Part shown: piece after piece, positions 1,758 through 19,002 of the stretch
Layout: each line of letters starts with the position of its first letter
Numbering within the stretch: the first letter of the stretch is position 1
Assembly (NCBI RefSeq): GCF_000092405.1
Contig: NC_014220.1
Coordinates: forward strand, 1,302,001 to 1,366,000
DNA from: Syntrophothermus lipocalidus DSM 12680
GTDB taxonomy: Bacteria > Bacillota > Syntrophomonadia > Syntrophomonadales > Syntrophothermaceae
Length of the DNA: 64,000 nt
Direction of reading: 5' to 3'
Program-made: the position numbers and the translations under genes
Notes under the pieces: model-generated
Databases searched by the model: none
Told to the model about the DNA's origin: nothing
What the model saw: the letters and a program-made list of their open reading frames with translations, nothing else

Positions 1758-1822
1758 TGACCAGCATTAAAGGAGGCCACACTCCAAATGAACTGTCTTT
1801 TACAAGATACAACACCTTATCG

Positions 1823-2462: not shown

Positions 2463-4069
2463 CTGGTAACAAAACTAACGATTTCTCCCATGAGCCTCTT
2501 AAGCTCCACACTGACTCCATTCCAATCTCCGGCAGCATCGAGGTGCACCATCATATGCTCAGGCTTGTCATGCTTTCGCGGCTCTTCGATTCCCGCCACG
2601 GCCTCAAAGCAGGGATCGCACTTGAACGTCAAAGCTGAACCATGTACTTTGACTGCTTGTTGAATGTCCCTTTCACGCTTCTCGTTGGTAGCTACGTCCT
2701 GCGGGTCAGTTTTGTCTGAATCCGTATCGTAAATGACCATCACAGGCTTTTCGATAGCTGCCATGATCCTTACAAGGATAGGAATAGCGGTCTTGCTTCC
2801 AGCTTCAATCACGGAACAATCATATAGGTCAAGCTCCAAAGTCGGTTCCATCATACCAGCGAGCCGTCGGATGGCTAAGTGCTCAGTTGGACCTTCGACG
2901 ATAATTACCTTTCGAGCAAAAAAGGCTTCGTTTTTTGGCTCGGCGAGGTGCTTAACTCGTGATTTCCAATCTCCTGTTACTTTAGATACATCTGGAGTCT
3001 TCACCTTTGTGCCGGCGTCCTTAGTTTTATAAACCAGTCTCACTGACTCAAAAGATTCCAGGTCAACGAAATCCTGGCTATGCGTCGTGTAAATTATCTG
3101 AAGGCCATTTTCGGAAAGTTCCTTGAGAAGACGAAACAGGTGTCGGCGTCCGTGCGGATGAAGATAGAGCTCAGGTTCCTCAAGGAGTAATATGGCGTTT
3201 TCTTTCTTCATCTCACGATAGACCTGAAGCAAGCTCATCACAAGAGCGGATTGAACACCTGAGCCCATGCGCTCAAAATCGACCAATTCCGGGGTATCGG
3301 GATCCTTGAACAAGATTGAAAAGTTCTTGTACAGATTTATAGGGTCGAGGCCATCCAACTGAAGCGACAGGTCCCGTAAGCCAGTGTGGCGCTTTAATTG
3401 TTCAGCAAGATTTTTCTCAAGTTCCTCGAACTCTTTCGTTCGCAGGAGTTCTCTGGCTTCTTCAAATTTATCCAGGAATGCTTTGAACCTTTTAGAATCC
3501 TTTTTTAGTTCTTTCGCGATATCAGCCAGCATGCGCCCGAAGATAGAACGCGAACTGCCGGACAAATGATAGCTAGCATTCCTGTCCACATCGACAATTA
3601 CCGCAGGTAGTTCGCCACGAATGTCGCTAGTAACTTGCGCAGGGCTCTGGTACGGCTTCGCCTGTGGATTCGGACGTTTCAGTATGTTGACGGGGTTGCC
3701 ATCCTTGTCTACACACACAAACGATGACTTCAGGTCACCAGGTTCTTTTTCCCCTGTTTTTCTCTTATATCTACCGATTTTGAACTGTATCCCCGAATAC
3801 TTCACGGGACTCCCAACATCTCCCCGCGTCTCACGCTCTTGATCGAACCAAACGGTGATCACCATGTTCCCGTCCGAATAAGCGTAAAAGTCCGCGAGCT
3901 CAATGGCTCTGGTCGTTGGCCACGTTTCTCCCAGCACTAAAGCAAGGGCACTGAGAATGTTGGACTTGCCCACGTTGTTAGGACCAATCAGGGCGCAAAG
4001 GTCCCCAACCTCGAATTCTAGCTCCTTGATGCTTCTGTAATTCTGGATTTTGACTCGTTCAAGCTTCAT
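2459..4069 (-). CDS. OLD-family ATPase/TOPRIM endonuclease
   Basis: A 536-residue protein with the OLD (overcoming lysogenization defect) layout: an ABC/SMC-like ATPase followed by a TOPRIM nuclease domain. The N-terminus LERVKIQNYRSIKELEFEV is the typical first strand. Walker A is GPNNVGKSN at about 29-37, and the Walker B/D-loop region reads AILLLEEPELYLHPHGRR. The TOPRIM domain starts at VIIVEGPTEHLAIRR, and the acidic YDTDSD follows. GAGGAG is 6 bases before ATG. OLD nucleases act on DNA and occur alone or with partners, for example a UvrD-like helicase in Gabija. No helicase neighbour is visible here; the neighbours are a HEPN gene and BREX genes, so a defence role is inferred from context. 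Confidence 0.85.
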   Translation of the reverse strand: MKLERVKIQNYRSIKELEFEVGDLCALIGPNNVGKSNILSALALVLGETWPTTRAIELADFYAYSDGNMVITVWFDQERETRGDVGSPVKYSGIQFKIGRYKRKTGEKEPGDLKSSFVCVDKDGNPVNILKRPNPQAKPYQSPAQVTSDIRGELPAVIVDVDRNASYHLSGSSRSIFGRMLADIAKELKKDSKRFKAFLDKFEEARELLRTKEFEELEKNLAEQLKRHTGLRDLSLQLDGLDPINLYKNFSILFKDPDTPELVDFERMGSGVQSALVMSLLQVYREMKKENAILLLEEPELYLHPHGRRHLFRLLKELSENGLQIIYTTHSQDFVDLESFESVRLVYKTKDAGTKVKTPDVSKVTGDWKSRVKHLAEPKNEAFFARKVIIVEGPTEHLAIRRLAGMMEPTLELDLYDCSVIEAGSKTAIPILVRIMAAIEKPVMVIYDTDSDKTDPQDVATNEKRERDIQQAVKVHGSALTFKCDPCFEAVAGIEEPRKHDKPEHMMVHLDAAGDWNGVSVELKRLMGEIVSFVTR

Positions 4070-4217
4070 AGCTCACTCCTCTTCTCCCGCATTCTTGTCC
4101 ATACGGTACTTGATGTTGCAGTTGACGATATATAACAACTATCTGTAAATGAGAAGCCGTAAGAAGAAAGACAGCAGATAATCACGATGATTATAACCTG
4201 GATGTCATTAACGATAG

Positions 4218-5288
4218 TTACTTACAAGGGCGCAGGCGCAACGTAGCTTCGTGCAGCCTATTCACGAAACGGTTGAAACAATCGACGGCCTTTTCCACCA
4301 GCTTTTGATCTGAGAGCTCAGGCTCCCCCGAGGCAACTGGGAGGTAGCTTTCCCACGGACTGAAATGCACCACCCTGTGGCGGTGATGAATGAGCCGTTG
4401 GAGCAGCGCCAGATCATTGGAGGAAACTCCTATCTCGCCAAACTTTATGCCGTAGGCCCTACGGTACGCCTTCTTCGCCTCCTCGTAATCCTGGAAGTTT
4501 ATACGTCGATCCCCGACTATCTTCTGAAGTACTGTCCGGTTCCTGGTGACTGCCTCCTCTTTCAAATCGTCTGCGGTGAAATGTGCCCTTTCCCGTTGGG
4601 AGTAAAAGGCAGTTATTAAGGCCTCAAGGTCGGGGTTAATACCTTCCGACTCCAGCTCCAGGAACCTTGTTTTGCAGTAGGCCTCAAAGCCTGTCACCAG
4701 CGTAACAATTATGAAGTTGCTCAAAATCACTTCGAAAGCGTAACCCTCTTCTGACTTTGCTTTTCTAAGCAACTCCACCGCTTGCACCGTGTTCCGCCAG
4801 GCCTCTATGGCTGTAGGCTGTAACACCAAATGCCCGCCCAGGCGCACGGAGTAGTGGCCCACCGCCAAGCTGGTATCGCCGATCCTGTAAACACGACCAT
4901 CATCGCCCACCCTGAGTTGTACCGGGGACGGTCGCCCCTCAGCCCGCACCAGCTTTCCCCCTGAAACCCTCGGACCTACATGCAACCTTGTTTCCGAAGG
5001 AGACCACACAAGCGCGATATATACCCGAAAACAGGGGGTAACAGACGTTAGATCTACCGTGGCCACGCGGGTTCCAGTGCCGGGAGCGGAATGATAAAAC
5101 AATAACTCTAACCGCTCGTTGCGCACCAATTGGAAAACGTGAGCTCCGGCAGCCACTTCCAAAATTACCTCCTGAGGCAGAGCTGTATCAAAAAGCGTTT
5201 CAGAAACGTAATCGAACTCAACCGTCCCTTCCGGGCGACACATTTCCTCCTGAATCTTTTTCAGCACTTCTGGCGGAATGTTTCGCAC
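4218..5288 (-). CDS. HEPN-domain protein with an N-terminal beta-rich domain (putative defence RNase)
   Basis: A 356-residue protein of no named family that I can assign. Roughly residues 20-150 are rich in beta-strand patterns (VILEVAAGAHVFQLVRNERLE, VGDDGRVYRIGDTSLAVGHY) reminiscent of concanavalin/LamG-like sandwiches. From about residue 190 the chain is helical (NFIIVTLVTGFEAYCKTRF) and ends with RHRVVH at about 303-308, which fits the R-x4-H motif of HEPN ribonucleases. GTG 5288 is preceded by GGAAGGTGAG. It lies 125 bases downstream of brxA on the same strand and upstream of the OLD gene. HEPN proteins with a conserved R-x4-H are often abortive-infection RNases; that role here is inferred. 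Confidence 0.7.
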   Translation of the reverse strand: MRNIPPEVLKKIQEEMCRPEGTVEFDYVSETLFDTALPQEVILEVAAGAHVFQLVRNERLELLFYHSAPGTGTRVATVDLTSVTPCFRVYIALVWSPSETRLHVGPRVSGGKLVRAEGRPSPVQLRVGDDGRVYRIGDTSLAVGHYSVRLGGHLVLQPTAIEAWRNTVQAVELLRKAKSEEGYAFEVILSNFIIVTLVTGFEAYCKTRFLELESEGINPDLEALITAFYSQRERAHFTADDLKEEAVTRNRTVLQKIVGDRRINFQDYEEAKKAYRRAYGIKFGEIGVSSNDLALLQRLIHHRHRVVHFSPWESYLPVASGEPELSDQKLVEKAVDCFNRFVNRLHEATLRLRPCK

Positions 5289-5413
5289 TGTCTCACCTTC
5301 CTTGTCGGGTCGTAGCGTTTGAGGTAGCAGGCAACTTCCTTACCCAAGAGTGGACCCCACACTTTCCAGGCCCGGCTACGGGCTCCACCACTAAAAAGAT
5401 ATAGACCCGACCA

Positions 5414-6136
5414 TTACCGGTGTACGATTGTAACCATGTCTAAATCCAAACCCTGACGCTGTATTTCAAACCGTTTAGATTGCCGTATATTCGCCACCGA
5501 AATATCCAGGTGAAACGGAAAAGCTGTGGGCAGCTGGGGTAATTGTTGCAGGATCACCGCTTGGGTTGCTTCCGAACACAACAGGGCTTCTAAAAACCAT
5601 AACTGAACACTAGCGCTGGCCGGGCCTTTTTTGGCGGTGGGGATATAAACGCCTTTTAGGGCCGTATCCTGGAGAACGCCCCAGTCTACCATCGAACGCA
5701 CCACTCGTTGGCTCGCCCGGCGAACAGTTGATCTTTCTCCCCACCGTTCTGCCAGCCGGCGGTAAATCTGCTCTAGAGAAACTTCATTCTGCAATGTCAA
5801 CAGACGACCAATAATATCCGCTATATCGCGAAAAAATGGATAGGCTAGAAGTGTCATGCCCCAGTGCAACCAGAGTCTTGTATCGGGGTCGTCCTCGGTT
5901 AAAATTCTTAAAGCCCGCTCCTGTAATGACCGGTGCTTCTGCGGTAACCTGACCCAAATCCGAGTTAATACGGTTATGGTCTTCCTGCGTGCCTCTCTAC
6001 TTCGACATTCTGACTGCAAGAAATCATCAAGGTATTTCCGTACCTCAGCAATGTCTGTTTCCGTTGCGGCTTTCCAGGCGGCGGCATCCAGCCATTCCAG
6101 CTTAACTCTCCGGTCAAAACCGATATTTAAGGCCAT
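5414..6136 (-). CDS. brxA: BREX protein BrxA (DUF1819)
   Basis: A 240-residue helical protein matching the DUF1819/BrxA family. The opening (ALNIGFDRRVKLEWLDAAA), the conserved central HWGMTLLAYPFFRDI and the wHTH-like C-terminal half ending in RVVRSMVDWGVL are recognisable. BrxA is a DNA-binding accessory protein of BREX phage-defence systems. I place the start at ATG 6136, 2 bases after the pglZ stop, with GGGAGGAG 8 bases upstream; an in-frame TTG at 6154 would overlap pglZ. As last gene of the brxF-brxC-pglX-pglZ-brxA run its position matches BREX type 3. Confidence 0.88.
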   Translation of the reverse strand: MALNIGFDRRVKLEWLDAAAWKAATETDIAEVRKYLDDFLQSECRSREARRKTITVLTRIWVRLPQKHRSLQERALRILTEDDPDTRLWLHWGMTLLAYPFFRDIADIIGRLLTLQNEVSLEQIYRRLAERWGERSTVRRASQRVVRSMVDWGVLQDTALKGVYIPTAKKGPASASVQLWFLEALLCSEATQAVILQQLPQLPTAFPFHLDISVANIRQSKRFEIQRQGLDLDMVTIVHR

Positions 6137-6138
6137 GA

Positions 6139-8088
6139 TCAATGCTCCTCCCAAATCCTGACAAAAGGAACGACAACCTCTTCCAAAGATATTCCGCCGT
6201 GGCTTACGATTTCTTCACCATTTGAGACAAAGGCTGACCGGCCCCTGGCCAGCAGCACGGAGTAACCCTGGGGTAAACCAAAACCAGGCCAACAGATGGC
6301 ATTTTCTATTTCTTCCATCATCTGCTGTCGAAAAACGTCGTAATGATAAATTCTGGCCCGCTCACCACGGGTTTCAGCCAGGACCCCGTCCGGCAAACGG
6401 CCTATTCCCCTGGCCGTAATATTACCGTGATCCGAAGTCAGATAGACGGCAAATTTATTTTTAAGGAGATAATCAATTAGCTGTATCAGGTAACCCTGTT
6501 CGGCCCACAACCTGACTTGCTGGTGCATACCTGCTGTCCCCAGCTCCATGCCGTGCATGATTCTGTCCACTTTATCTATAACCAGACCCACGATCTCGAA
6601 CTGTGATCCTAAAAATTCTCCAATTTCACTTACCGACTCGTCACCCAAACCTTTATGGTAGTAGGTATTTCCTCTCCTGACCCCGCTGTCTTCCCAAAAT
6701 TTGTGCCAGTGCTGTTCTTCTTTCGAGGTTGTCGTCAGAGTGTCCTTGAAATACAGGGGCGGCTCTGCAGCGAACAGCGCCTGCCGTGAGATAGAAGTTA
6801 AGGTCGGTACCCAGGCAAAGACCTGGTTTTCCTCGATTCGCCGCGCCGGGTACCTGTCTCTCAGGAAATTGCGGATAACCAGCCATTGATCCAATGCCAG
6901 GCCGTCAGTGACGATCAGGGCGATCTTTTTTGCTCCCTCTTTGAGGCGCAGATGGGCGAGATAGCGGGGGATGTGGTGCACCATCACCGGTCTGGAAGTA
7001 TAGGGGAGGTTGGCCAGGGAGCCGTAGCGCACGAGCATCCAGCTCGCAAAGCGCTCTTCCAATTGATCGTGCAATTCCTCAATTTTTAGTTTGCTTTCAG
7101 CTTCTATGTCCTGATTCAGTTCCCGGCTAAGCACAAGCAATTCCGCCCACAGAACGGCCAGGCGCTGCCAGTCCCTGTGGGACGCTGTTTCTCCAGGCAA
7201 ATCTTGTCGTATCTTCTCTAATAGCCACTTAATCCTGCGCCTTTCGTTAGCCTGCTTATCTAAGAGCACACCTGCCAGGACCCACGCGGGCATACCTTCC
7301 GTACTCGCAACCGGAACAGGCCTTAAACTGCCTTCCAAGAACAGGTTGTCGATGTACACCCGTATGTCATAATGCTCAAAGGGGACCTCGGTGAAATTCT
7401 CTCCTTTGGCCGTGCTCTCCAGGAAGCGACGCCATTTTTCTTGCAGGAAAGCAAAAAAGGCTTCCCTCCTGGGAATGATGTCTTCCAGCGGCCAATTCTT
7501 AAAAACGCTCTTTTCTCTTAAACAATGGATAAGGTGTTCGTCCAAAACCGAGGGCACAGTCACAAAATTGCAATGCCGCGATAACAATATCTTCATCAGT
7601 TCGACCGGTGAATTGATAAGGTCGGGTATTATGCCAAAAACATGTTTTAAGATAAAATCCTTGGTCGCCTTCTCCCCCAGCGTAGGGCCATTGTAATTCT
7701 GGTATGCACTGTAAAGCTTATCCAGGTCGGACTTCTCCACAGCCGCAACTACCGGATAGCTGAGTTTGGGAAAGATATCGGCTAAGCTGAAGAAAAGCTT
7801 ATGGCCCCTCTGCCATACATCGAAGGGGAGGCGGCGCAGTTCCTGCGGGCCGCCTTTTACCACCACTATTAAATGTGCCGCTTCGCCCCGATCCCATCTT
7901 GAGCGATAGTTTACTTCATACACATAACGAAAGGTGATGGGATCACTAAAAACAAGGACATCAAACCCCATTTCCCCTAGGGCTGAGAGAATATCTTCTT
8001 CCAGGAGCAAGCCGTCGGGGTCAGCCGCTAAAGTAAGTCTTGATACGCCTGGCTGTAAGTTTTTAAGAATGTGGTCGCGCCAGTTCAT
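6139..8088 (-). CDS. pglZ: BREX protein PglZ (alkaline-phosphatase superfamily)
   Basis: A 649-residue PglZ protein. PglZ is the signature component of all BREX/Pgl systems, a predicted metal-dependent hydrolase of the alkaline phosphatase fold; its substrate is unknown. The N-terminal ~330 residues are the family's variable part. The PglZ core begins near KKIALIVTDGLALDQW, with the first metal-binding aspartate, and carries YLTSDHGNITARG and the late VSHGGISLEEVVVPF motif. The start ATG 8088 lies 54 bases after the pglX stop, with AAGGTG upstream. In the standard type 3 order a helicase gene (brxHII) would sit between pglX and pglZ, and there is no room for it here. Confidence 0.9.
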   Translation of the reverse strand: MNWRDHILKNLQPGVSRLTLAADPDGLLLEEDILSALGEMGFDVLVFSDPITFRYVYEVNYRSRWDRGEAAHLIVVVKGGPQELRRLPFDVWQRGHKLFFSLADIFPKLSYPVVAAVEKSDLDKLYSAYQNYNGPTLGEKATKDFILKHVFGIIPDLINSPVELMKILLSRHCNFVTVPSVLDEHLIHCLREKSVFKNWPLEDIIPRREAFFAFLQEKWRRFLESTAKGENFTEVPFEHYDIRVYIDNLFLEGSLRPVPVASTEGMPAWVLAGVLLDKQANERRRIKWLLEKIRQDLPGETASHRDWQRLAVLWAELLVLSRELNQDIEAESKLKIEELHDQLEERFASWMLVRYGSLANLPYTSRPVMVHHIPRYLAHLRLKEGAKKIALIVTDGLALDQWLVIRNFLRDRYPARRIEENQVFAWVPTLTSISRQALFAAEPPLYFKDTLTTTSKEEQHWHKFWEDSGVRRGNTYYHKGLGDESVSEIGEFLGSQFEIVGLVIDKVDRIMHGMELGTAGMHQQVRLWAEQGYLIQLIDYLLKNKFAVYLTSDHGNITARGIGRLPDGVLAETRGERARIYHYDVFRQQMMEEIENAICWPGFGLPQGYSVLLARGRSAFVSNGEEIVSHGGISLEEVVVPFVRIWEEH

Positions 8089-8142
8089 AAAACTACACCT
8101 TCTACGTATGTTATCGAGGATAATTCGTTACCGGCGGATAAA

Positions 8143-10782
8143 TCATTCATCCAGCCGCATCAGGGCGTTGTCGTAGTACATCAGGAGAGTGGTATCTTCC
8201 TGGAGGACGGTATCCGGTATGCGCCTGGCCACCTCTACGATGGTCTTGTAGTCTTTAGCAGCCCAGCAGGCCTTGAATCCGGCCCGTAAGGCTTCGGTGC
8301 GGAATACTTTCAGCCTGCCCCTGCCTTCCTTGTACTCCTCGAACTCTTTGAGGAGGGCCTTCTCGCGCATCTTCTCCAGGTCGGACTGCCTGCCGGGGTC
8401 GGGGACGTACCAGCGGCCGTAATCGTCTTTAAGGAAGTTCTGCTCCAGCAGTTCGGAGAGCTCCGGCAGCTTTTCGTGCCTTGCCTTGTGCAATTCCCGC
8501 AGGAATTTGGGGTGGATTTCCTGGTATGTCTGCGGCTTCTTTTCGAGTTCGCTGCGCAGCCACTGGATAGCCGACTTTTCATCAATCACGAACAGCGACA
8601 GTTGTTCAAACTCCCTAACTGATAGCCGTTTTTTATCATACTCGTTTACCTGGTCCGGCAGAAAATACATTCCGTCCCGCTCGGGGAAGCGCTGCTTCAA
8701 GCCGGCGTAAAACTCCGCCGCTCCCATAGGCACGGCAACTCCCCGCTGGACGTGGAAGGCCACCATCCGGTCGTAGAGAAGGAAATTCTGCCGCTCGGCA
8801 ATGACCTCCGCTTTGCCGTTTTTCTCCACGAAGACCGGCAGCTGTTTGAGGTGGGTGCGGACAAAATCCCAGACTCCTTCTTCGGTTCCAGCCTCCAGGT
8901 GAAATCGCTTTTCCAGGCCGCCGTTGGGCTTGTAGGCGGAGATGACCAGGTCCTGCTTCACCGCGGTGGTCGAAGTAACCTGCTTGAAGGTCCCCTGCTT
9001 TTTGTCCAGGGTCCGCACGTCGGCAATAACGAACCCGGCCCGCATAATGGCCTCCTGGATGGCGTTCCAGATCCGGTTCTGCGAGTTGTGAAACACCACC
9101 GTCATCCACCGGCCGGGCTTTAAGACCCGGTAGTACTCGGCAAAGCACTTCTCCATGAGCTCCTGGTATTCCCGCGGGCCTTTGCCCTGGGCTTTGTTTT
9201 CTACGGCTTCGGGCTTATTGTTGGTAAAGACCCTGAGCCAGGCTTCCCAGAGGAAATTGAGCTCAGAGTACATCAGGTTGCCGCCAAAGGGAGGGTCGGT
9301 GAAAATGTAGTCTATATAATTTTTGGGGATACTGGTATTGGTGGCCGAAGTTGTTTCCACCAGAACATATCCTTTTTCTGGGTATCGAACTTTGCAAAAG
9401 TCTAACAGCTTATATTTCAAAAGCTTCAACGGGCTATTTTCCGTCCATAATGAAGGAATGTAAAGGGTACCACTTACTGTCCCCATTTTCCGGTCCAGGG
9501 TAAACTTGTACATTTTTGTCGTTCTTATCAGGGAAGAAGTTAGCCAAATTAGGAGTAGTTTTAACGGCAAGGCTTTGGCCATATTTAAAACGAGCGCCAA
9601 AACCCACAAATTCCGCCTCGTGTAAAAATGGTGAACATGAGTAATCCCATGTGACACTTTAGGCTGTTCGGTATTGTAGCCCTCCGGCATGCGGTCGGTA
9701 GGATACCAGTACGGTATCTCGCTCTCCTCAATCTTCCGGATCAGGTCCAGGTCGTACTCGTCGGGCTTTTTCTCATACCTCTTATTCCCCACCGAATAGT
9801 TAATGAGCACCGGCACCTGGCGGGCACGGGTGACGGTCTGCCCGATGTCCCGGTCATACACCCTTTCCGTGGCCCTCTCCAGGGTCCGCTTGGTGAGGTC
9901 CGCCCCGCAGTGGGGGCAGGGAAACTCGTCCCTGACTTTACCTTCTTCTTTGTCTACCGCCACTTCCCAGAAGACAAGCTCCGCTGAACAATGGGGGCAG
10001 ATAAACACGTCGGACCAGACGGTGTAGTTGATTTTACCCATGATGGGGCTGCCCTTGGCGCCTTTCTGCACCTTTCCGCCCACCACGTGCTGCGTTTCGT
10101 ACATCCAGCCGCATTCTCTTTCCACTTCCTCCAGAATCCGCCGGGCTTCGCGTTCGAAGGCCTGAACATCAACCGGCGTGTTGTAGTTGTAGGCAATGAA
10201 AGTGGCTGCCGGCGAAAGGTCGATTAATATAGCCTTGCGTGCTCCAAGCTTAGAAAAGGGCCGGCCTTTTTCGTCCAGGATGGTCCCGTCATCCAGAACG
10301 CGGTAGCCCAGGGATTCAACGGCCTTGCGGTCCCCACATAAGCTTGCCGCCACGCCGGTCATGCCCGTGCCGCAGAAACCGTCAAAGACGATGTCTCCCG
10401 GCTCGGTGTAGTGGAGGATATAGCGCATGATGGCCCTGTGGGGCACCTTGGTGTGATAGGAATGGGCGTTGTAAATGGGATCGTTCTTACCCTCCGATAC
10501 ATCCGCCGCAAACGGTTGCCTGCGGTAATCGTCGTTATCCGGGTCGTACGGCTTGCCATGCTCTTTAATGAAATCCTCGATGAACGGGTTCGGGCAGGCA
10601 GTGTAATAGGGCGGGTCGGAAAGGTTGATGATGTCCTCATCTTTAGCAATGGGAAACCCCTCGATCTGCCTGACCCGGTCCAGGCGTTCTTTGGTGAGCC
10701 CGAAACGCCGGCGCTTTTGCTTCTGCTGTCCTTCTTCGTTTCCTTCCGGAATGTCCATAAAAAGCTGCTCTTCCTGGGCCAT
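8143..10782 (-). CDS. pglX: BREX type 3 adenine-specific DNA methyltransferase PglX
   Basis: An 879-residue methyltransferase with a first catalytic-type motif DPPY at 56-59, a SAM-binding motif I FDGFCGTGMT at about 133-142, and a second DPPF motif near residue 510 (YIFTDPPFGGNLMYSELNF). A zinc ribbon with two CPHC pairs lies at about 260-300. This arrangement matches the BREX type 3 (PglXI-type) enzymes that methylate adenine in a non-palindromic site to mark host DNA. The start ATG 10782 lies 14 bases after the brxC stop, behind GAGGGG. The C-terminal ~230 residues are probably target recognition or protein contacts. No break in the frame is seen. Confidence 0.88.
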   Translation of the reverse strand: MAQEEQLFMDIPEGNEEGQQKQKRRRFGLTKERLDRVRQIEGFPIAKDEDIINLSDPPYYTACPNPFIEDFIKEHGKPYDPDNDDYRRQPFAADVSEGKNDPIYNAHSYHTKVPHRAIMRYILHYTEPGDIVFDGFCGTGMTGVAASLCGDRKAVESLGYRVLDDGTILDEKGRPFSKLGARKAILIDLSPAATFIAYNYNTPVDVQAFEREARRILEEVERECGWMYETQHVVGGKVQKGAKGSPIMGKINYTVWSDVFICPHCSAELVFWEVAVDKEEGKVRDEFPCPHCGADLTKRTLERATERVYDRDIGQTVTRARQVPVLINYSVGNKRYEKKPDEYDLDLIRKIEESEIPYWYPTDRMPEGYNTEQPKVSHGITHVHHFYTRRNLWVLALVLNMAKALPLKLLLIWLTSSLIRTTKMYKFTLDRKMGTVSGTLYIPSLWTENSPLKLLKYKLLDFCKVRYPEKGYVLVETTSATNTSIPKNYIDYIFTDPPFGGNLMYSELNFLWEAWLRVFTNNKPEAVENKAQGKGPREYQELMEKCFAEYYRVLKPGRWMTVVFHNSQNRIWNAIQEAIMRAGFVIADVRTLDKKQGTFKQVTSTTAVKQDLVISAYKPNGGLEKRFHLEAGTEEGVWDFVRTHLKQLPVFVEKNGKAEVIAERQNFLLYDRMVAFHVQRGVAVPMGAAEFYAGLKQRFPERDGMYFLPDQVNEYDKKRLSVREFEQLSLFVIDEKSAIQWLRSELEKKPQTYQEIHPKFLRELHKARHEKLPELSELLEQNFLKDDYGRWYVPDPGRQSDLEKMREKALLKEFEEYKEGRGRLKVFRTEALRAGFKACWAAKDYKTIVEVARRIPDTVLQEDTTLLMYYDNALMRLDE

Positions 10783-10796
10783 AACTCTTCACCCCT

Positions 10797-13700
10797 CTAT
10801 TCCAGGACGATCCTTACCTTCTGCGGGTCCCTGCCCCGCGTGAGAGACCGGATATAATCCTCAAAGCGCTGCTGAAACTCAGATACTGTGCAGGGCGTTC
10901 CGCCTTGAGTCAAAGCTTTCTTTAAGTCGGCTGCGGTAACCGAAACCTTTTCCATGCCGGAGAGCACTTCCTGAACGGCCTTTACAAATGATGCGTCCAC
11001 CGTGTAGGGCAGCTGCTGTTCTTTGACCACCTGATCCAGTGCTTTTCGCTGCTCCGGCTTCAAAAGATAGATGTTTTCCTTTACCGTCGGGTCTTCCAGG
11101 TTGGCGATCAATGTCCTTTCCCAATCCTCGCACAGTCTTTCCAGGTCTTCCTCCAACCGCCTGAGCGCCGCGTCAGCCGGCAGCTTAATTTGCTCCTGTG
11201 CCGGCCGGTAGCTGCAGTGAGGACAGACGGGCGTTTTTTCCAAATCCTCTCTGGTGAGGCTGAAACACGTTTTCAGCTCCGCCAGACGGTTTTGGAAGTC
11301 CGTAAGCTGGGCCCGGGGCATCAACTCTATACCAGCCAGCCTGTTGAGTTTGCTCAACCGCTCATCTTTGAGAAGTTCGGATTTTTTCTGATCCCCGGTC
11401 GCATTTAACCGGGCCCTGGCATGGGCCTGCAGGTAAGTCTCAATGTACGAGTTCTTGAGTTCCACCAGCACCTGCACGAGTTCCCGTCGCAGGCTGGGGT
11501 CGGATGCTTCGTCCAGGCCGGATAGTTTTGCCTTGAGCTCTTCACGCCGCTCCCGGGCTTTTACCGTCCAACCGGCATCCGCAGGAAGCACGGCTTCGGC
11601 GGTGCTGAGGTAGGAGAGCAGAGGCTGGACTTCACTTGCCAGGCCGGCCAGCTCTTCAACCCTCTTCAGGGTGGCAAGGTACGTCTTCTGCTTATTTATA
11701 TCCCGCTCGGAGTAGCGGAAGTTTTTCAACTTCCCGGGAGTGTTAAAAACCCGGAGTAATTCCAGAAATCCTTTGAAACTTGCCAGTTTATCCCTTAAAC
11801 CGGCTTTATTTTTCTCATCAAACAAAGAAATACCCCACAAAGATAACTCTTGCTGTATCACCTGCTGGGCTTGCACGGTGCGCTCCAGGAGCTGATCCAC
11901 CGCTTTCTGAAGCTGCCTTACCCCTTCTTCACGAGTAGATTGATTGACGATCAGCCCGGGCGGCAGCCCCAAAAATTCAAACAGAGCCTGTAGGGGACCG
12001 AGGGGCAGGTCCTTGGGACGCTCGATATGCTTGAACTTAATAAGTTCCTCCAGGGGAATTTTGCCCAGCTCCTCCAGGTTGGAAGCATCTATCTTCTTCC
12101 CCGGAATGCTTAAAGTAACATCGCCGCTGTAGATCAAGCTCGCCAGGATGACGACCACCCACTCCGGCTCCAATCTGAAACGGGTTTCGTACTCCACACC
12201 GCGAAACTCGGCTATTATTTCGCCCCGGTTGAGGACCTGACCCGGGCCCTTTTTGTCCAGCTGTCCCAGGATGTGTTTGGCATAACGGGAATTTTGCGGC
12301 CTTAACTTATCTCCGTCCAGAAGTTCCAGGGCATCGAGGACGGCTGCCCCCTGCCTGGTCCTGATGCTGCCGAGGATCCACTTTATCGCCTCCTGGGCAG
12401 CCTGAGGCCGGTTCTTTACGGTAACCAGGATGGAGAAGGCCGGGTATTCGGGCGCCAGCTCCCGGAAGTAGGGCGCCAGGCAAAGGGAACCCACCATGTT
12501 CACCAGATCCCGAACCGAGGCATGAGAAGTGGCACTGTGCTTAATCCACTCGACGAATTTTTTAGTTGCTCCCCGGTAGGTAACTTCATAAGCCGTGGTG
12601 ATGTTGTTCCGCAGCCATTCGACTATCTTTTTCAGCTGGTCGTTGGCCTTATTTTCATAGACCTGCCGCGTTCCTTTGGAAGCCGTGCTGGCCATCTCGC
12701 AGGCGCCGGCGTAGAACTTAAGGGCACGGTCAAAGTTCTCGTCACGCTGCACCAGCCGGAAAAACACCTCATCGGGCTTTTTCTCATCCTCAAAAAGCGG
12801 CGGGTCAAAGGGCTGCAGAAAATAGAGGTAAAAGTCCCTGGGCGGGTGGGCGGTAGAACGCTCGTTGGGAGCCCCGAAGAATAAATACCCTAACCGGGTG
12901 GCCTTTTTCTCGCGCCACTCAATTTCGTGCTCCCAAATCTGGAAATTGGGAACATACGTGGCTTCGGGGCACTCCATGGCCCGGGCGAGGGCCTTAAAAT
13001 AGTAGCGGTCCAACTGGTTGGGGGTCAAGACTTCCGCTTTCTGCTCAATTAGAGAATCAAAGTCGATGTCTTTTTTCAGGTCAAGGTAGTACTGGCCGTT
13101 GTCCTGGTTGAAAGAAATAAACTGGCCGCTCACCGTCCTTAAGATCTCGCGCAAGATTGATTCTATAATGGTTTTAAGAAACTCGGCATCCTCTTCCGGC
13201 AAGGGCAAGTAAAGGCAGAGGTCGTCGCGGAGTTCTTCAGCCGTGACCCCTATGGGAGCGTAAATATCTCCTGTTGTCAGCCGGTGAACGCTCAAAGCGT
13301 GAATGATGCGGAGGGCCACAGGCTTATACTGCGGCCTTGTAAAGGCCTGCTGGACACGGTATTCCAGTACCTGGCTCTTCTCAATCACTTCGCGAATGTC
13401 CGGGTCGCTGCGGAAAGAAGGATTGTCCTTTAAGTTTTGCCAGTAAGAGTCATAAGCGATGAGGCCGGGGTCATTTTCCGGAACTTCTTTGTCCAGGAGT
13501 TTTTTCATGGCAAAACTTATGGTTTTCAGCACCTCGCGCTTTTCGGCTACATAGACCCGCTCAAAAGTTTCCAGGTATGCCGGATGCACGGGGAAAAGAA
13601 CGACGAATTCGTCCATGCGCTCGGCCAGGGTGCCGTATAGTTTGGTGAAACGCTGCAGGTGCTCCCTTATGAGAGCCTTCTGCCTGTCATCCTTGCGCAG

Positions 13701-14477
13701 TAACCTCTGGGCAACTACGTAGGCTATGTCCTCACGGACAATTCGTATCTGCTCAAAACGGTCTTTGACCCGGCGCAGGGTTTCAGCCACAAACTGAAAG
13801 CGCGGGCTGTCAAAAATGGCTTCCTGCACCCCGGCCACGAAGCGAAACCGGGTGAGCCGGCAAACCTCCCCGATTTCCCGCAAGAAGTTTAAGTCGAGGA
13901 TTAGCTCCTGATCTTTGCGCGTGCGCAGGTAGTCCAGGAGTTCATCGACAACCAGCAAGAGCCCGTGATCCGGGTAAACTTCCTGGAAAGCGTTCATCAT
14001 CTCAATAAAAGGGTCTTTGTTGTTGGTAATTTTATCGGCTTCAGGAAAACGGTATTTCACCCCGAGATTAGCCAGCTGTTCTTCCAGCTCGGCACAAATG
14101 ATGTTCCTGAGAGACATCGTGGTGGAACCGATCTCGGTCCTGACAACCTTGAACTTGCCAGCGATAGCCTGCGCTTTTGCGGCCACAGCGGGATGCCGTA
14201 TCTCCGTGACCAGGTCTGGATATTCGGCTATAGCAGATAGTACCGACATTAAATGCGATTTGCCGGTACCATAGTTACCGACGATCAAAAGCCCCTTATT
14301 ATCCTGGGGATGGCCGTATTGAAGCTGCGGAAAGACAACTTCCGTAATCTGCTCGGCCATCCGTTCCGAGATCACGTAGCTTTTTACCAACTCCCCGGCC
14401 CTGCTTTTGGCATCAGCTTCCCGTAACTGCACTATAGTTTCGACCGGTTCAAAATGTATGAGGTCAGCGTACTTCAC
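10797..14477 (-). CDS. brxC: BREX protein BrxC/PglY (DUF6079-type ATPase)
   Basis: A 1226-residue ATPase, the size expected of BrxC. Walker A is [10 protein letters not shown] at 67-76, and Walker B is [14 protein letters not shown] near 180. A long helical middle and C-terminal region follows, containing a CPHCSY zinc-type motif near residue 1100. BrxC is essential in BREX systems studied so far and resembles AAA+/ORC-type ATPases; its mechanism is not settled. The start GTG 14477 follows AAGGTGGGG. It lies 30 bases downstream of brxF and 14 bases upstream of pglX, so these genes form one operon. Confidence 0.88.
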
Positions 14478-14507
14478 AGTATTTCCCCACCTTTTCCTAA
14501 AATCCCT

Positions 14508-14966
14508 TCACTCCAGAGGACAAATAAGGGCATCGACTTCATAATATTTTCGGTACTCCGGGTGATCTGGCTCCGCATAGACCAGCGCACCGCCCTCGAA
14601 CTTGCCGTTCCATGCGGCAACGATAGTTCGATTGCGGCTGACTTGTTGAAGCAAACGTAAAGGGTCCTGTTGAAGTACAGGATCAAAAAGTATTTCTGTG
14701 TTATCGAGAAGGACCGTATTCTTTCCCGTTTCGCCTATGATCGTCTCCACTATTCTCGGCAGGCGTAACGCTCGCATTCTTGCGGGGTATTCCAGGAGTT
14801 TCTGACTCAGCGCGAGGTTCAGATTAATATAGGGATAACCCTCATCTCTGGCTGTTTGAACAAGGATTTCGGTTTTTCCGGTTGCAGCTGACCCAACCAG
14901 TAATACCAGTCGATAATACCTCGACCGGGCTGCTGCTATTTGTTTTTTGAGCTCATCTGTTTTCAT
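14508..14966 (-). CDS. brxF: BREX type 3 P-loop protein BrxF
   Basis: A 152-residue P-loop protein, the marker of BREX type 3 that precedes brxC. Walker A is GSAATGKT at 25-32, and a Walker B-like IIGETGKNTVLLDNTEILF follows. I use ATG 14966 as start because the family is about 150 residues and begins shortly before the P-loop. A longer in-frame start at 15044 would overlap the upstream AbrB-like gene and add 26 residues that do not look conserved. The ribosome site is weak (GGGA). It is the second gene of the operon after the AbrB-like regulator. Confidence 0.82.
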   Translation of the reverse strand: MKTDELKKQIAAARSRYYRLVLLVGSAATGKTEILVQTARDEGYPYINLNLALSQKLLEYPARMRALRLPRIVETIIGETGKNTVLLDNTEILFDPVLQQDPLRLLQQVSRNRTIVAAWNGKFEGGALVYAEPDHPEYRKYYEVDALICPLE

Positions 14967-15015
14967 GGCAATCCCAGCACCTGCCTGTATATCCCCTCGA
15001 TAACCACTAAAAGCA

Positions 15016-15219
15016 TCAGGTCTCAGCAGCTTCCCCAAACCCATCTTTCTTGCTGGCGGGAATAATTATCGCCTTCTCCAGGACGACCTTCCCATCGCCT
15101 TCGATTCTGAGAAGAACCCGGTCGCCCTCTTCAATTTCAAGAGCAGTCCGTATTTCTTTCGGCAACGTCATTTGACCTTTCGGTCCCATTTGGGGTGTAA
15201 AAATTTTCTTTTGGGCCAA
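15016..15219 (-). CDS. AbrB/MazE-type (SpoVT-AbrB) DNA-binding protein, first gene of the BREX operon
   Basis: A 67-residue swapped-hairpin AbrB protein; the core TPQMGPKGQMTLPKEIRTAL-EIEEGDRVLLRIE is typical of AbrB/MazE antitoxins and transition-state regulators. I place the start at TTG 15219, with AGGTGG 5 bases upstream; a frame back to 15273 adds residues outside the family. It is the most upstream gene of the minus-strand run and is followed 49 bases later by brxF. No toxin partner is adjacent, so a role as operon repressor is more likely than antitoxin. A perfect palindrome at 15288-15303 upstream is its candidate operator. Confidence 0.8.
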   Translation of the reverse strand: MAQKKIFTPQMGPKGQMTLPKEIRTALEIEEGDRVLLRIEGDGKVVLEKAIIIPASKKDGFGEAAET

Positions 15220-15287
15220 GAAAACCACCTGCCAGGAAGTATGGAAAACTGGATATGGAGATTTATTCGGCAAGAAAGCATGAAAAT

Positions 15288-15303
15288 CCTGCCAATTGGC
15301 AGG
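15288..15303. promoter_or_regulatory. 16-bp perfect palindrome upstream of the AbrB/BREX operon
   Basis: CCTGCCAATTGGCAGG, about 70 bases upstream of the AbrB-like gene. A further TGGCAGG half-site occurs at its ribosome-binding region (minus strand, about 15227-15234). This is a candidate operator for autoregulation; no convincing -35/-10 pair was found. Confidence 0.5.
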
Positions 15304-15412
15304 AAAACCTTACAAAAAGACAGCATGGCGGAAGCGCCAGCCGCAGGATTCGACTCGCGGAGGACTGTACCCGTCCCGACGTTGGTAAGTAGTGAAGTAG
15401 TACGGTTATTTA

Positions 15413-15468
15413 ACCTGTGAGTTTCTAGTGGTGGAAATCATGGTACAATAGTAACCAGGAGAGTGGTC
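15413..15468 (+). repeat. Right copy of the ~56-bp flank repeat
   Basis: Matches 1-56 with about five or six differences, including the AACCAGGAG ribosome-site region, but is followed by no DUF433 gene. It lies 115 bases upstream of the UPF0175 antitoxin start. Confidence 0.8.
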
Positions 15469-15535
15469 GGGAATTGGTTCTGTCATAGATTTTTTCAAGG
15501 TGACAATATCACAGATGGTTATAATAAATATAAAG

Positions 15536-15564
15536 TTGAGGACGTGTATCTCTTATGGTATGAT
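15536..15564 (+). promoter_or_regulatory. Sigma-A promoter of the UPF0175/DUF3368 module
   Basis: TTGAGG (15536-15541) and TATGAT (15559-15564) with a 17-base spacer, 20 bases upstream of the antitoxin start. Confidence 0.65.
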
Positions 15565-15583
15565 TTTACCGGGAGGCGATAAA

Positions 15584-15874
15584 ATGCCGGACCAAACTAT
15601 AAGGATTGATCTCGAGTTGCCAAAAGAACTGTTTATCAAAGGCCGGGAATCGGCTCAACGGGTAAAAATGGAGGCCTTGAAGAGGCTGGCGGCAACCTTT
15701 TACGCAGATGGGAGTTTATCCCTGGGGAAGGCGGCGGAACTGGCCAACCTTTCCAAACAGGAATTCCTCGATTTCTTGGCCGCACATAACATCCCTCTCA
15801 ACTATGATCTCAATGAGCTAGAGGAAGACTTGGCCACCGTTAAGGAGTTTTTACAAAATGAAAGTGGTCTCTAA
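15584..15874 (+). CDS. UPF0175 family antitoxin
   Basis: A 96-residue UPF0175 protein. After a ribbon-type N-terminus (IRIDLELPKELF) comes the family helix-turn-helix GSLSLGKAAELANLSKQEFLDFLAAHNIPLNY. These proteins are antitoxins of DUF3368-type PIN toxins and bind their own promoter. ATG 15584 has GGGAGG 7 bases upstream; the frame is open further up but without a ribosome site. The gene overlaps the toxin gene by 17 bases. A scar of its last ~15 codons exists at 681-720, showing that this module once existed also at the left end of the island. Confidence 0.87.
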   Translation: MPDQTIRIDLELPKELFIKGRESAQRVKMEALKRLAATFYADGSLSLGKAAELANLSKQEFLDFLAAHNIPLNYDLNELEEDLATVKEFLQNESGL

Positions 15875-16340
15875 TTCGACACCCCTCATTGCTTTAGCCC
15901 GGATTAAGCAAGTAGAACTCCTACACCACCTATTTGGACGAATCATGATTCCTCAATGTGTATACAATGAAGTGGTACTACCGGGAACTGAGCTTCCCGG
16001 CGTGAAGGAAATAGGAGAAGCTACCTGGATCGAGACCCTCCAAGTACAAAATGCTCTGGCGGTCTCCTTGCTTAAAACCGACCTTGATGGGGGAGAAGCG
16101 GAAGCCATCGTTTTAGCCAAGGAAGTTAATGCGGATTATCTTTTAGTTGATGAGAAAAAAGCCCGACGTATCGCCAGAAATTCGGGCTTAAGGATTATGG
16201 GTACCCTAGGCATTTTGGTACTTGGTGTGAAAAGGGAGTTGTTGCCTGCTATTGACCCAATCCTCGACAGCCTGGAACAGAATGGGTTCCGCTTTAGCGA
16301 AAAGGTAAGAACAAAGATTAGGAAAGAAATTGGGAAATAA
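15858..16340 (+). CDS. DUF3368 family PIN-domain toxin
   Basis: A 160-residue PIN-domain protein, predicted Mg-dependent ribonuclease toxin. Family landmarks are the opening VVSNSTPLIALARIK, the central acidic LDGGEAEAIVLAKE and the third acidic site YLLVDEKKARRIA. The start ATG 15858 lies inside the antitoxin gene, giving coupled translation. The last codons belong to the 455-bp repeat, and a terminator follows at 16365. The left-hand twin of this gene is deleted down to its first three and last few codons. Confidence 0.87.
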   Translation: MKVVSNSTPLIALARIKQVELLHHLFGRIMIPQCVYNEVVLPGTELPGVKEIGEATWIETLQVQNALAVSLLKTDLDGGEAEAIVLAKEVNADYLLVDEKKARRIARNSGLRIMGTLGILVLGVKRELLPAIDPILDSLEQNGFRFSEKVRTKIRKEIGK

Positions 16341-16771
16341 GCTGGCGGCGGAAACTTATACCAGACCCTCCACCAGTAAGGTGAAGGGTTTTTTGTCTCG
16401 CCGCCTTTTCCCTAGTTTTCCCTGCCCAGGATCAGGTATGTGTGGTTCTGGCACCAACAGAGCCAACATATCTATTAGAAGCATGAACCGAGAACGGAGG
16501 TAGGAGGTTGTGACGCGAATTCGACATTTGTTTCCAGGAGGCAACACCTGCAACGGGTTTCATTCCTTCTACGAGTTCATCGTGCCGAACCAGGCCCGGT
16601 TGAAACTGGTCTTGAAAGGCGGCCCGGGAGTTGGCAAGTCGACCCTGATGAAGAAACTAGGCGAGGAGTTTATCGACCTGGGTTATCGTGTGGAGTTTCA
16701 CTGGTGTTCATCTGACAACGAATCCCTGGACGCCATCGCACTGCCGGACTACGATATCGCGGTCGTCGACG
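16317..16771 (+). repeat. 455-bp direct repeat, right copy
   Basis: Twin of 732-1186. It begins inside the last codons of the DUF3368 toxin and ends in codon 87 of the intact two-P-loop ATPase gene. Confidence 0.93.
16365..16394 (+). terminator. Rho-independent terminator of the toxin-antitoxin module
   Basis: A 10-bp stem with one mismatch and a six-T tail, 24 bases after the toxin stop; identical to 780-809. Confidence 0.75.
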
Positions 16772-17622
16772 GTACCGCACCACATGTGGTGGATCCCCGC
16801 TTCCCCGGGGCCGTCGACGAGATCGTGAACCTCGGTGACTTCTGGGATAAGGAACACCTGCAGGGAAACCGCGAAGAAATAATCGCCGCCACCTCTTTAA
16901 ACGGCCGGTATTTCGCCCTGGCGTACAACCGTCTGCGCGAAGCCAAGGTTATCTACGACGAATGGGCTTCTTACTATGAAGAAGCGCTCGACAAGCGGGC
17001 TTGGCAGGAACTCGCTAACCATTTGATCAAAAAATTGGTTAACGCAGCAGAAAAACCGTCAAAGCCTTTGGCCCGCCGGCCCTGCCGCCATCTTTTTGCT
17101 GCAGCCATAACCCCGAACGGGGTGGTCAACAACATCACCTCACTGGTGAATACCGATTGTCGGACCTACCTCTTGAAGGGAAGCCCGGGCACAGGGACAG
17201 ATAAACTGCTGGCAGTCTTGAAGACCGTCGGAGAGTGCACCGGCCTGGCTCACGAATGCTACCATCATCCGTTTGTTCCAGACCGTATTCAAGCCCTGAT
17301 TTTCCCTGAAATAAGGATGGCGGTGGTCGACGAAACGCCGTGGCTGACTCGAGCCGAGCTTTTCTGGCCTGACCACCGGGATATCAGGACTATGCACCTG
17401 GATGAAATCGTGGAGCTTCCCCTTTTATCCCCTTTTCAGGCTGATATTGCAGATTGCCAGGAACGGTTCGCTTCCTGCCTGGCTACAGCCGTGAACCACC
17501 TAAAGCAGGCTAAAACCGTTCACGACCAGCTTGAAAGCTATTACACCCCGGCCATGAACATCTATGAACTGGAAGCCAAAAGAGAAGAGCTGAAGCAGAT
17601 GATCCTCCGCTACTACCTGTAA
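16510..17622 (+). CDS. Two-P-loop ATPase of the PRK06851 type, function unknown
   Basis: A 370-residue protein made of two homologous P-loop halves. The first half has a full Walker A, GGPGVGKST, and DYDIAVVD as Walker B. The second, from about residue 180, repeats the pattern (YLLKGSPGTGTDKLL, IRMAVVDETP), but the invariant lysine of Walker A is replaced (GSPGTGTD), so it probably does not hydrolyse ATP. Both halves share the introductory phrase on a filled-in substrate ('NGFHSFYEFI', 'NGVVNNITSL'). The family is widespread in Clostridia without a known role. GTG 16510 follows GGAGGTAGGAGG. A 5' fragment lies at 925-1186. The 8-bp inverted repeat CCTGTAAA/TTTACAGG over the convergent stops could end both this gene and the next. 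Confidence 0.75.
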   Translation: MTRIRHLFPGGNTCNGFHSFYEFIVPNQARLKLVLKGGPGVGKSTLMKKLGEEFIDLGYRVEFHWCSSDNESLDAIALPDYDIAVVDGTAPHVVDPRFPGAVDEIVNLGDFWDKEHLQGNREEIIAATSLNGRYFALAYNRLREAKVIYDEWASYYEEALDKRAWQELANHLIKKLVNAAEKPSKPLARRPCRHLFAAAITPNGVVNNITSLVNTDCRTYLLKGSPGTGTDKLLAVLKTVGECTGLAHECYHHPFVPDRIQALIFPEIRMAVVDETPWLTRAELFWPDHRDIRTMHLDEIVELPLLSPFQADIADCQERFASCLATAVNHLKQAKTVHDQLESYYTPAMNIYELEAKREELKQMILRYYL

Positions 17623-17640
17623 AACCATCGGTAAATACCT

Positions 17641-19002
17641 TTACAGGCCGCCTTCGACTAGCCTGAGAGCAACTCGGCCGGCCTCTTCTATGACCGTTCG
17701 CTCGTTTAGGCTCAGTAGCTGGCGGTTTTGCATGACCACCTTGCCGTCGATGATGACCGTGTCTACGTCCGAGGCCTGAGCGGAGTATGCCAGGTGAGCT
17801 ACCAGGTTGTGCGGGGGATGGAAATGAGGCTGGTCTACGTCTATGAGAATTATATCTGCCTTCATCCCGGGCTTTATACATCCTATTTCCTGATCCAGAC
17901 CTAAAACCCGGGCCCCGTTCACCGTGGCCATCTCCAAAGCCTGGTAAGCCGTAATGACCCTCGGGTCCATCTTACGGGCCTTTTGTAGCAGAGCCGCCGT
18001 TCTGGCCTCTTCGAACATGTCAAGGTTATTGTTGCTGGCGGCACCATCGGTTCCCAGAGCTACCGTTACTCCGGCCGCCATGAGTTCGGTAACCCTCGCT
18101 ATCCCGCTACCCAGTTTCATATTGCTTTGAGGGTTGTGCACAACTCCTACCTTGTTCTTAGCGAGGGTCTCGATGTCCTCATCGGTCAGGTGCACGCAAT
18201 GGGCTGCAACCACCCTGTGGTCAAACAGGCCTGCCTCGGCAAACATGGCTACCGGAGTCTTGCCGTATTCTTTTTTGATGGTTTCTACCTCAGCCATGGT
18301 CTCGGAAAGATGGGTGTGCATGTCAAGCCCCAGTTCCGAGGCCAGGTCCATAACCCTTCGCAGGTAAGGAGGGGGACAGGTGTAAGGTGCGTGGGGGCCC
18401 AGCATTATCTTTAGGCGCCCGTCAGCCTTCCCTTGCCATTTAGAGGCGAGATCCCTGCTTTCTCGCAAGGCTTTTTCGGCATTGGGGCCGACGCCGTTCA
18501 TTCCCCGGCATAGTACGGCCCGTATCCCGGTTTCCTCAACTGCCCGGGCTACATCATCCATGAATATGTACATATCGGCAAAAGTGGTCGTTCCAGATTT
18601 TATCATCTCCGCGATGCCCAGCATGGTTCCCCAGTAGACGTCTTGCCCGGTCAGGTTACACTCGAAAGGCTCGATCTTGTTTTGGAGCCATTCCATCAGT
18701 GGCAAATCATCGGCGTAACCCCGCATCAGTGTCATGGCCGCGTGAGTGTGGGCGTTTACAAAACCGGGCATGACCAGCTTGCCTTTACCGTCGATGATTT
18801 GTCCATTTTCCCGGACTAGCGAAGGCTTGCCGCTACCTACCTCGCGGATATGCTGTCCTTCGATCACTAGAAAACCTTCCGGGATAAAGTCATGCGGCCC
18901 GGTCATGGGCAGTATCTTTACATTCGTAACGAGCACTCGCCGGTTTTTGTTTACCGGATGCTTACCTGTCATTTCGCCTACCATCTCCCTATTTCCGTGC
19001 AT
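17641..19002 (-). CDS. mtaD: 5-methylthioadenosine/S-adenosylhomocysteine deaminase
   Basis: A 453-residue amidohydrolase of the MtaD/SsnA/TrzN group, which deaminates MTA or SAH to the inosyl forms. Metal-binding signatures are NAHTHAAMTLMRG (His 85 and 87), VAAHCVHL, and LGTDGAASNN with the catalytic aspartate; LDMHTHLSET supplies a substrate-side histidine. The start ATG 19002 has AAGGAG 7 bases upstream and overlaps the aldolase stop by 14 bases. It is the last gene of the phosphorylase-isomerase-aldolase-deaminase run, so MTA is the likely physiological substrate. SAH recycling remains possible. Confidence 0.85.
   Translation of the reverse strand: MHGNREMVGEMTGKHPVNKNRRVLVTNVKILPMTGPHDFIPEGFLVIEGQHIREVGSGKPSLVRENGQIIDGKGKLVMPGFVNAHTHAAMTLMRGYADDLPLMEWLQNKIEPFECNLTGQDVYWGTMLGIAEMIKSGTTTFADMYIFMDDVARAVEETGIRAVLCRGMNGVGPNAEKALRESRDLASKWQGKADGRLKIMLGPHAPYTCPPPYLRRVMDLASELGLDMHTHLSETMAEVETIKKEYGKTPVAMFAEAGLFDHRVVAAHCVHLTDEDIETLAKNKVGVVHNPQSNMKLGSGIARVTELMAAGVTVALGTDGAASNNNLDMFEEARTAALLQKARKMDPRVITAYQALEMATVNGARVLGLDQEIGCIKPGMKADIILIDVDQPHFHPPHNLVAHLAYSAQASDVDTVIIDGKVVMQNRQLLSLNERTVIEEAGRVALRLVEGGL

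Follow-up and report, generated by a model that had tools for sequence, protein, structure and literature searches.

In the genome of Syntrophothermus lipocalidus DSM 12680 (a single contig, NC_014220.1, of 2,405,559 bases, 99.99% complete), we analysed a window of 64,000 nucleotides, bases 1302001-1366000, which carries a type 3 bacteriophage exclusion (BREX) operon. The helicase gene brxHII of this operon appears to have been deleted in frame, with the other genes kept; methylation is predicted to be retained and restriction to be lost or weakened, and we give this reading a probability of about 0.8. The first-pass annotation of this DNA had reported that the helicase gene was missing from its usual place, and this was borne out, as only a scar was found at the pglX-pglZ junction.

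In-frame deletion scar of brxHII

The scar is a mini open reading frame (ORF) of 21 codons at positions 8085-8150 on the minus strand, which reads MNDLSAG followed by NELSSITYVEGVVL and joins, in frame, the first 7 codons of brxHII to approximately its last 13. It overlaps the end of pglX by 8 nt and the start of pglZ by 4 nt (ATGA). Three relatives whose pglZ has 91-93% DNA identity to that of the window (loci L043, L045, and L046) carry a gene of 945-948 amino acids (aa) between pglX and pglZ, which was identified as brxHII by PADLOC in L043 and by a profile built here in L045 and L046, both of them seeds of that profile. In L043, the first 8 nt of brxHII lie within pglX and its stop codon overlaps the pglZ start in ATGA, and the mini-ORF has the same overlaps. 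Because the mini-ORF starts and stops where the L043 gene does, in frame, the junction is clearly read as the product of a deletion within brxHII that kept the reading frame and took out about 2.8 kb, or about 926 of 948 codons as estimated from L043.

Comparison of the junction with L043 was also carried out at the DNA level. After MNDLSAG the window reads ELSSITYVEGVVL versus ELSAITIIYVEGVVP in L043. On the 5′ side 50 of 51 nt were identical, mostly pglX sequence, and the 13 nt past the pglX stop matched L043 brxHII with one mismatch; on the 3′ side the 20 nt leading up to the pglZ ATG matched it at 17 positions, and in both tests none of 200,000 base shuffles was as good. Among the 20 retained codons, 8 differed from L043 and 6 of these differences were synonymous (counted by eye, leaving out the joint codon and a gap of 2 codons). 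As the differing codons are mostly synonymous, the remnant would have diverged mainly while it was still coding, which suggests that the deletion is younger than the split from L043. L043 carries TGCCGG near both breakpoints, and the longest exact repeat common to the first 60 and last 100 nt of its brxHII was 6 bp, but the window joint is not a simple product of TGCCGG pairing, so no deletion mechanism is claimed.

Genes of the operon

All five remaining genes lie on the minus strand with intact ORFs. brxF (14508-15044, 178 aa), which encodes the BREX-3 P-loop/iSTAND protein, scored 213 bits with PADLOC over positions 2-154 of 158 of the profile and 183.5 bits with the NCBIfam model BREX_3_BrxF (NF033453, cut-off 50), as a type-3 BrxF does. 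The full-length ATPase gene brxC (10797-14477, 1226 aa) gave 2067 bits with PDLC02482 over the whole profile (1-1231 of 1231) and 1672.7 bits with Pfam DUF6079, which marks the DUF6079 form of type-3 BrxC; the NCBIfam BREX_BrxC model gave it only 31.7 bits against a cut-off of 400. pglXI, also called brxXI and here pglX (8143-10782, 879 aa), encodes an N6-adenine methyltransferase of the PglXI type (PADLOC PDLC02541, 1484 bits, best profile stretch 28-791 of 919; Pfam N6_N4_Mtase). Full-length pglZ (6139-8088, 649 aa) scored 1033.8 bits with PADLOC (profile 2-664 of 666) and 887.7 bits with NCBIfam BREX_PglZ_3 (NF033449, cut-off 250), and its protein nests within the type-3 PglZ tree. brxA (5414-6154, 246 aa) matched the PADLOC BrxA model PDLC02437 with 347 bits over positions 3-237 of 238. 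The PADLOC matches for the five genes and the type-3 NCBIfam scores thus agree with the earlier identification of a BREX type 3 operon, and the ORF coordinates confirmed that the genes present are intact and that exactly 54 nt separate the pglX stop from the pglZ ATG.

In a sliding comparison, pglX codons ~400-500 had 39-47% DNA identity to L043 versus 74-98% elsewhere in the gene, and this part appears to be a swapped specificity region resembling a target recognition domain. Just upstream of the operon and divergent from brxF, UPF0175 and DUF3368 genes at 15500-16340 (plus strand) are likely a toxin-antitoxin pair. Two Cas3 genes outside the window (C1:1399286 and C1:1612026) suggest two type I CRISPR loci in the same genome.

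Recurrence of brxHII loss

A total of 121 loci were annotated with profiles built here, namely 40 stretches, 80 named loci (of 289 relatives), and the window. The stretches came from 38 genomes, out of the 73 with a PglZ_3 match among 398 sampled genomes of the phylum; weak matches, and matches over the cut-off that were partial or near contig ends (G216, G154, G032, G083, G351, and G044), were left out. Filtering gave 112 loci unique by PglZ and 87 with pglX upstream of pglZ, which were reduced to 81 non-duplicate loci and then to 65 with full-length pglX and pglZ. Outside the window locus, absence of BrxHII means absence within the stretch examined, and a helicase further off would be missed.

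BrxHII was absent from 23 of the 81 non-duplicate loci. When full-length pglX and pglZ were required, 18 of 65 loci lacked it, with pglX and pglZ directly adjacent in 13 of the 18, and the remaining 47 had a full-length BrxHII in 46 cases. This agrees with the available part of a 2026 survey (PMC12839542), in which BrxHII was present in 77% of type-3 systems and is therefore usual rather than universal. The first-pass annotation had named a lack of the gene in many type 3 systems as one observation that would undo its claim, and both the locus survey and the figure in print amount to such an observation.

On a quick PglZ tree of the 81 loci, in which three loci with a DrmD-type helicase were scored as lacking BrxHII, the BrxHII label needed 13 changes, at least 11 of them forced by starred branches. 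Shuffled labels needed 20.3 changes on average and 0 of 500 shuffles was as low as 13, so brxHII loss is both clustered and recurrent. The window locus fell in a set of five rows (support 99*) of which the other four have BrxHII, and its nearest relatives carry the full gene at the junction. The idea of a helicase-free variant was therefore corrected to that of a deletion derivative, since both brxHII ends lie in frame in the gap and the locus is nested among helicase-bearing loci.

Another junction points the same way. In L144 (Magnetococcales, JADGCQ010000108.1), the ORF MPPSKAFTTREQALPELTPLMMIRLLGEKIDV lies between the end of pglX and pglZ, and over its final 78 nt it agrees at 62 positions with the 3′ end of the L145 brxHII, a C-terminal remnant only. 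When 16 short junctions were put through a protein-level scar test, L144 alone was above the null (C-terminal score 54 against a null maximum of 41), and we take it as a second, independent brxHII scar.

Three of the 23 loci without BrxHII (L066, L067, and L068) form a clade with a DrmD-type SNF2 helicase after brxA, at 15348-17717, 12623-15826, and 9661-12864, respectively. The DrmD model PDLC02620 gave 1245 bits in L067 and 1058 bits in L066, and the helicase of L068 was assigned by a SNF2-type match and a profile that includes L068 itself. Other arrangements were also seen. L132 has an OLD-TOPRIM and UvrD-helicase pair, Gabija-like, at 5335-8951 between pglX and pglZ where brxHII would sit. 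L134, L141, and L179, without BrxHII, have Schlafen/AlbA-type genes of 497-630 aa between brxC and pglX (called by Pfam in L134 and by resemblance in the other two). In L047 (1-1401; genome G391, same family) a TAG codon splits the end of brxHII, with pglZ and brxA both intact, which may reflect either a further loss of the helicase or a sequencing error in a metagenome-assembled genome. Genome G201 has a helicase-less BREX-3 on contig C98, and on C4 a BrxHII match of 914 bits adjoins a PglZ_3 match that falls below the cut-off.

Loss of brxHII, repeated many times, is thus a real finding but not an exotic one: a known type of system has cleanly lost one gene. Published work already implies that BREX-3 loci without the helicase exist, and in the literature searched we found no description of a deletion scar or of recurrent loss of brxHII.

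Selection on the remaining genes

We estimated the ratio of nonsynonymous to synonymous substitution rates (dN/dS) on the branches of the window and its relatives. Pooled over pglX, pglZ, and brxA, the window branch had a dN/dS of 0.120, and the helicase-bearing relatives had 0.114 (L043), 0.142 (L044), 0.209 (L045, pglZ and brxA only), and 0.173 (L046). The value for pglX alone, 0.075, was the lowest. This analysis showed that the three genes, when pooled, are still constrained much like those of helicase-bearing relatives. Pairwise dN/dS between the window and L043 was 0.13-0.21 over the five genes, with a DNA identity of 92-94% in four of them and 84% in pglX. Six pairs without BrxHII (L051/L052, L063/L064, L134/L141, L067/L068, L066/L067, and L132/L133) gave 0.05-0.30 where it was computable, with one brxC value saturated, and the helicase-bearing pair L050/L053 gave 0.11-0.25.

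Proposed working and downstream effector candidates

By analogy with type 1 BREX, the BrxF-BrxC-PglXI-PglZ-BrxA set may keep methylating host DNA, and loss of the helicase would mainly remove or weaken the restriction step. In the available text of the type-1 studies, an Acinetobacter system deleted for brxL restricted less but methylated as before (PMC9122589), and in StySA BrxL is described as a requirement of restriction only (PMC9009780); BrxHII is presumed to be the type-3 counterpart of BrxL in unwinding DNA (PMC12839542, available part). The preserved start and stop overlaps probably keep translation of pglZ coupled to pglX, and by our own reasoning losing the attack step while retaining modification would be a safe order of loss. 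Residual immunity could come from PglZ itself and from two downstream genes in the same direction.

The first of these genes encodes a HEPN-like candidate effector (4218-5288, minus strand, 356 aa; Pfam HEPN_RiboL-PSP 21.3 bits, below the cut-off of 28.4). Its R303-x4-H308 was invariant in six of six aligned homologues, and we take this R-x4-H to be a HEPN-type motif. In the 398 phylum genomes a near full-length match was found in 5 (its own included), and 4 more matched only about the first 100 residues; G384 and G227 also carry the gene and fall outside the 73 genomes where PglZ_3 matched. The second gene, at 2459-4069 (minus strand, 536 aa), encodes an OLD-family ATPase with a TOPRIM nuclease domain (Pfam AAA_15 129 bits; OLD-like_TOPRIM 54.9 bits, cut-off 23.2; PADLOC Old/GajA). 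A Gabija system was considered and rejected, because the protein matches GajA models but the next ORFs, of 96 and 131 aa, have no UvrD match, as an adjacent GajB would. The two genes are likely backup effectors. Their presence is to be expected, since effectors of the TOPRIM/OLD and HEPN kinds are among those that the available part of PMC12839542 reports next to BREX loci.

A similar arrangement was seen in G035 (L205, 13647-19925), where part of pglZ is followed by brxA, HEPN, and OLD genes as in window block 1467-8088; the contig ends inside pglZ, and a small ORF adjoining OLD resembles one in the window. In that genome the pglX match had just 27% identity (E 3e-5), brxC had none in a search run without a positive control, and PDLC02500, the BrxHII model, had 0 matches. 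As pglX upstream of pglZ was required, G035 stands outside the 81 loci.

We compared effector counts in the 23 loci without BrxHII with those in the 58 with it. Schlafen was found in 4 versus 9 (p=1), OLD-TOPRIM in 4 versus 20 (p=0.18), OLD-DUF3696 in 1 versus 11 (p=0.16), DUF3644 in 1 versus 1 (p=0.49), and HEPN-like genes in 2 versus 0 (p=0.078, both being profile seeds). The profiles were seeded partly from the tested loci, and four Schlafen and the two HEPN-like matches without BrxHII are seeds, so the counts lean towards association, yet none was significant. A common substitute effector was thus rejected, as none of the five families consistently accompanied loss of the helicase.

These counts also bear on whether the operon might be a working helicase-independent BREX-3 that restricts through PglZ and the HEPN and OLD effectors. 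We regard this as a tentative possibility. The constraint retained in helicase-less loci, the position of the two genes directly downstream, and the proposal in the available part of PMC12839542 that PglZ is the primary nuclease with such backups all favour it, but OLD-TOPRIM, OLD-DUF3696, Schlafen, and DUF3644 were not significantly enriched without BrxHII, the HEPN-like family gave the p value above, and brxL deletion in type 1 lowers restriction (PMC9122589, available text).

Several points weigh against the reading that we prefer, a helicase-deleted BREX-3 with methylation kept. Among the five branches, that of the window ranked first in dN/dS for pglZ alone (0.303) and second for brxA alone (0.298), which is possibly a slight relaxation on these two genes; the branch analysis covers pglX, pglZ, and brxA, as among the compared relatives only L043 has both brxC and brxF in its stretch. 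When the window scar was tested at the protein level by local alignment (60 shuffles of a short peptide, compared with 68 references), the result was not significant: the null maxima were 43 for the C-terminal part, which itself scored 43, and 42 for the N-terminal part, which scored 37. The case for the scar rests on the anchored DNA tests and the reading frame. The central bases of the joint can be assigned to neither brxHII end, and the junction is known from the assembled sequence alone. Finally, no type-3 experiment on BrxHII was found in the literature searched, so the split between methylation and restriction is borrowed from type 1.

Possible decay of the operon

The operon could instead be a dead and decaying BREX that lost the helicase first, with the rest drifting to loss. 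G035 and the Pelotomaculum metagenome-assembled genome of L126 fit this course, as they retain part of pglZ (at a contig end), brxA, and the HEPN-like gene, and the brxC search mentioned above found no match in L126 either; pglX is broken in two helicase-less loci (L063 and L077), and the window-branch values of about 0.30 for pglZ and brxA would agree with it. However, all five ORFs are intact with a pooled dN/dS of 0.120, helicase-less clades persist with low dN/dS, and pglX was counted as broken also in the helicase-bearing L045, L139, and L188, so a broken pglX does not single out loci that lack the helicase. We therefore consider decay rather unlikely.

Search for a helicase in the genome and integrity of the junction

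The whole genome was searched for a BrxHII homologue. The BrxHII model PDLC02500, which gives the helicase of L043 1530.6 bits, had 0 matches (E<=0.001), and neither the DrmD model PDLC02620 nor BrxL_ATPase had any; in 14 control genomes the three models found matches in 14, 13, and 2, respectively. Thus no brxHII match lies close outside the window either. Helicase_C matched nine times in the genome, namely in UvrB, RecG, Mfd, a DECH helicase, PriA, the two Cas3 proteins, SecA, and one weak ResIII/Helicase_C-like ORF. A SNF2 fragment of 193 aa at genome position 201403 resembles the SCO1167 helicase family, and a 131-aa ORF at window positions 1823-2218 (minus strand), perhaps a type I restriction remnant, has a short SWI2/SNF2 (HsdR-like) match of 25.6 bits, under the cut-off of 26.7.

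The earlier suggestion that another gene has taken over the role found no support in this inventory. A helicase supplied in trans has a precedent of sorts in the three loci with a DrmD-type gene after brxA, but it is improbable here, given no BrxHII, DrmD, or BrxL_ATPase match, Helicase_C matches that are mostly housekeeping or Cas3 types, and nothing beyond a short sub-threshold match in the 131-aa ORF. An assembly artefact that dropped 2.8 kb is very improbable: it would fit a junction read from an assembly, but the genome is a nearly complete single contig, the longest exact repeat near the brxHII ends in L043 is 6 bp, and most of the codon differences between the remnant and L043 are synonymous. 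A lineage that never had brxHII can be set aside as scarcely credible, for arrangements with no detectable scar do exist (e.g., L051, L052, L134, and L141) but both ends of the gene survive in the window gap and the locus is nested among helicase-bearing ones.

Comparison with known systems and significance

The window operon shares with BREX type 3 (brxF-brxC-pglXI-brxHII-pglZ-brxA) five of six genes, their order and direction, and the L043-type junction overlaps, and differs in that brxHII is cut to a 21-codon scar and that brxA is followed by the HEPN-like and OLD-TOPRIM genes. The available part of PMC12839542 counts BrxHII among the core components of type 3, and with 0 BrxHII matches and only the scar we file the operon as a helicase-deleted type-3 derivative and not as a complete type-3 system. 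It resembles brxL-deleted type-1 BREX in having lost a helicase-like part and kept the methylation genes (PMC9122589 and PMC9009780, available text), but those are laboratory constructs that lack the AAA+ BrxL and not the SNF2-type BrxHII, and the window operon is known from its sequence. L066, L067, and L068 likewise have no BrxHII between pglX and pglZ, but they carry a DrmD-type SNF2 helicase after brxA and the window genome has no DrmD match.

One speculative extension, which we think less probable than not by a good way, is that loss of the helicase turns BREX-3 into a stable, selected modification system whose immunity is given up or passed to interchangeable RNase and OLD effectors. Several lineages would then have deleted or swapped brxHII, two of them leaving in-frame remnants between pglX and pglZ, with the methylation complex maintained. 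Natural in-frame deletions with the other genes under selection suggest that BrxHII is the dispensable part, and the window operon and L043 form a ready-made pair for asking what the job of BrxHII is, whether restriction only, like BrxL, or nothing essential.

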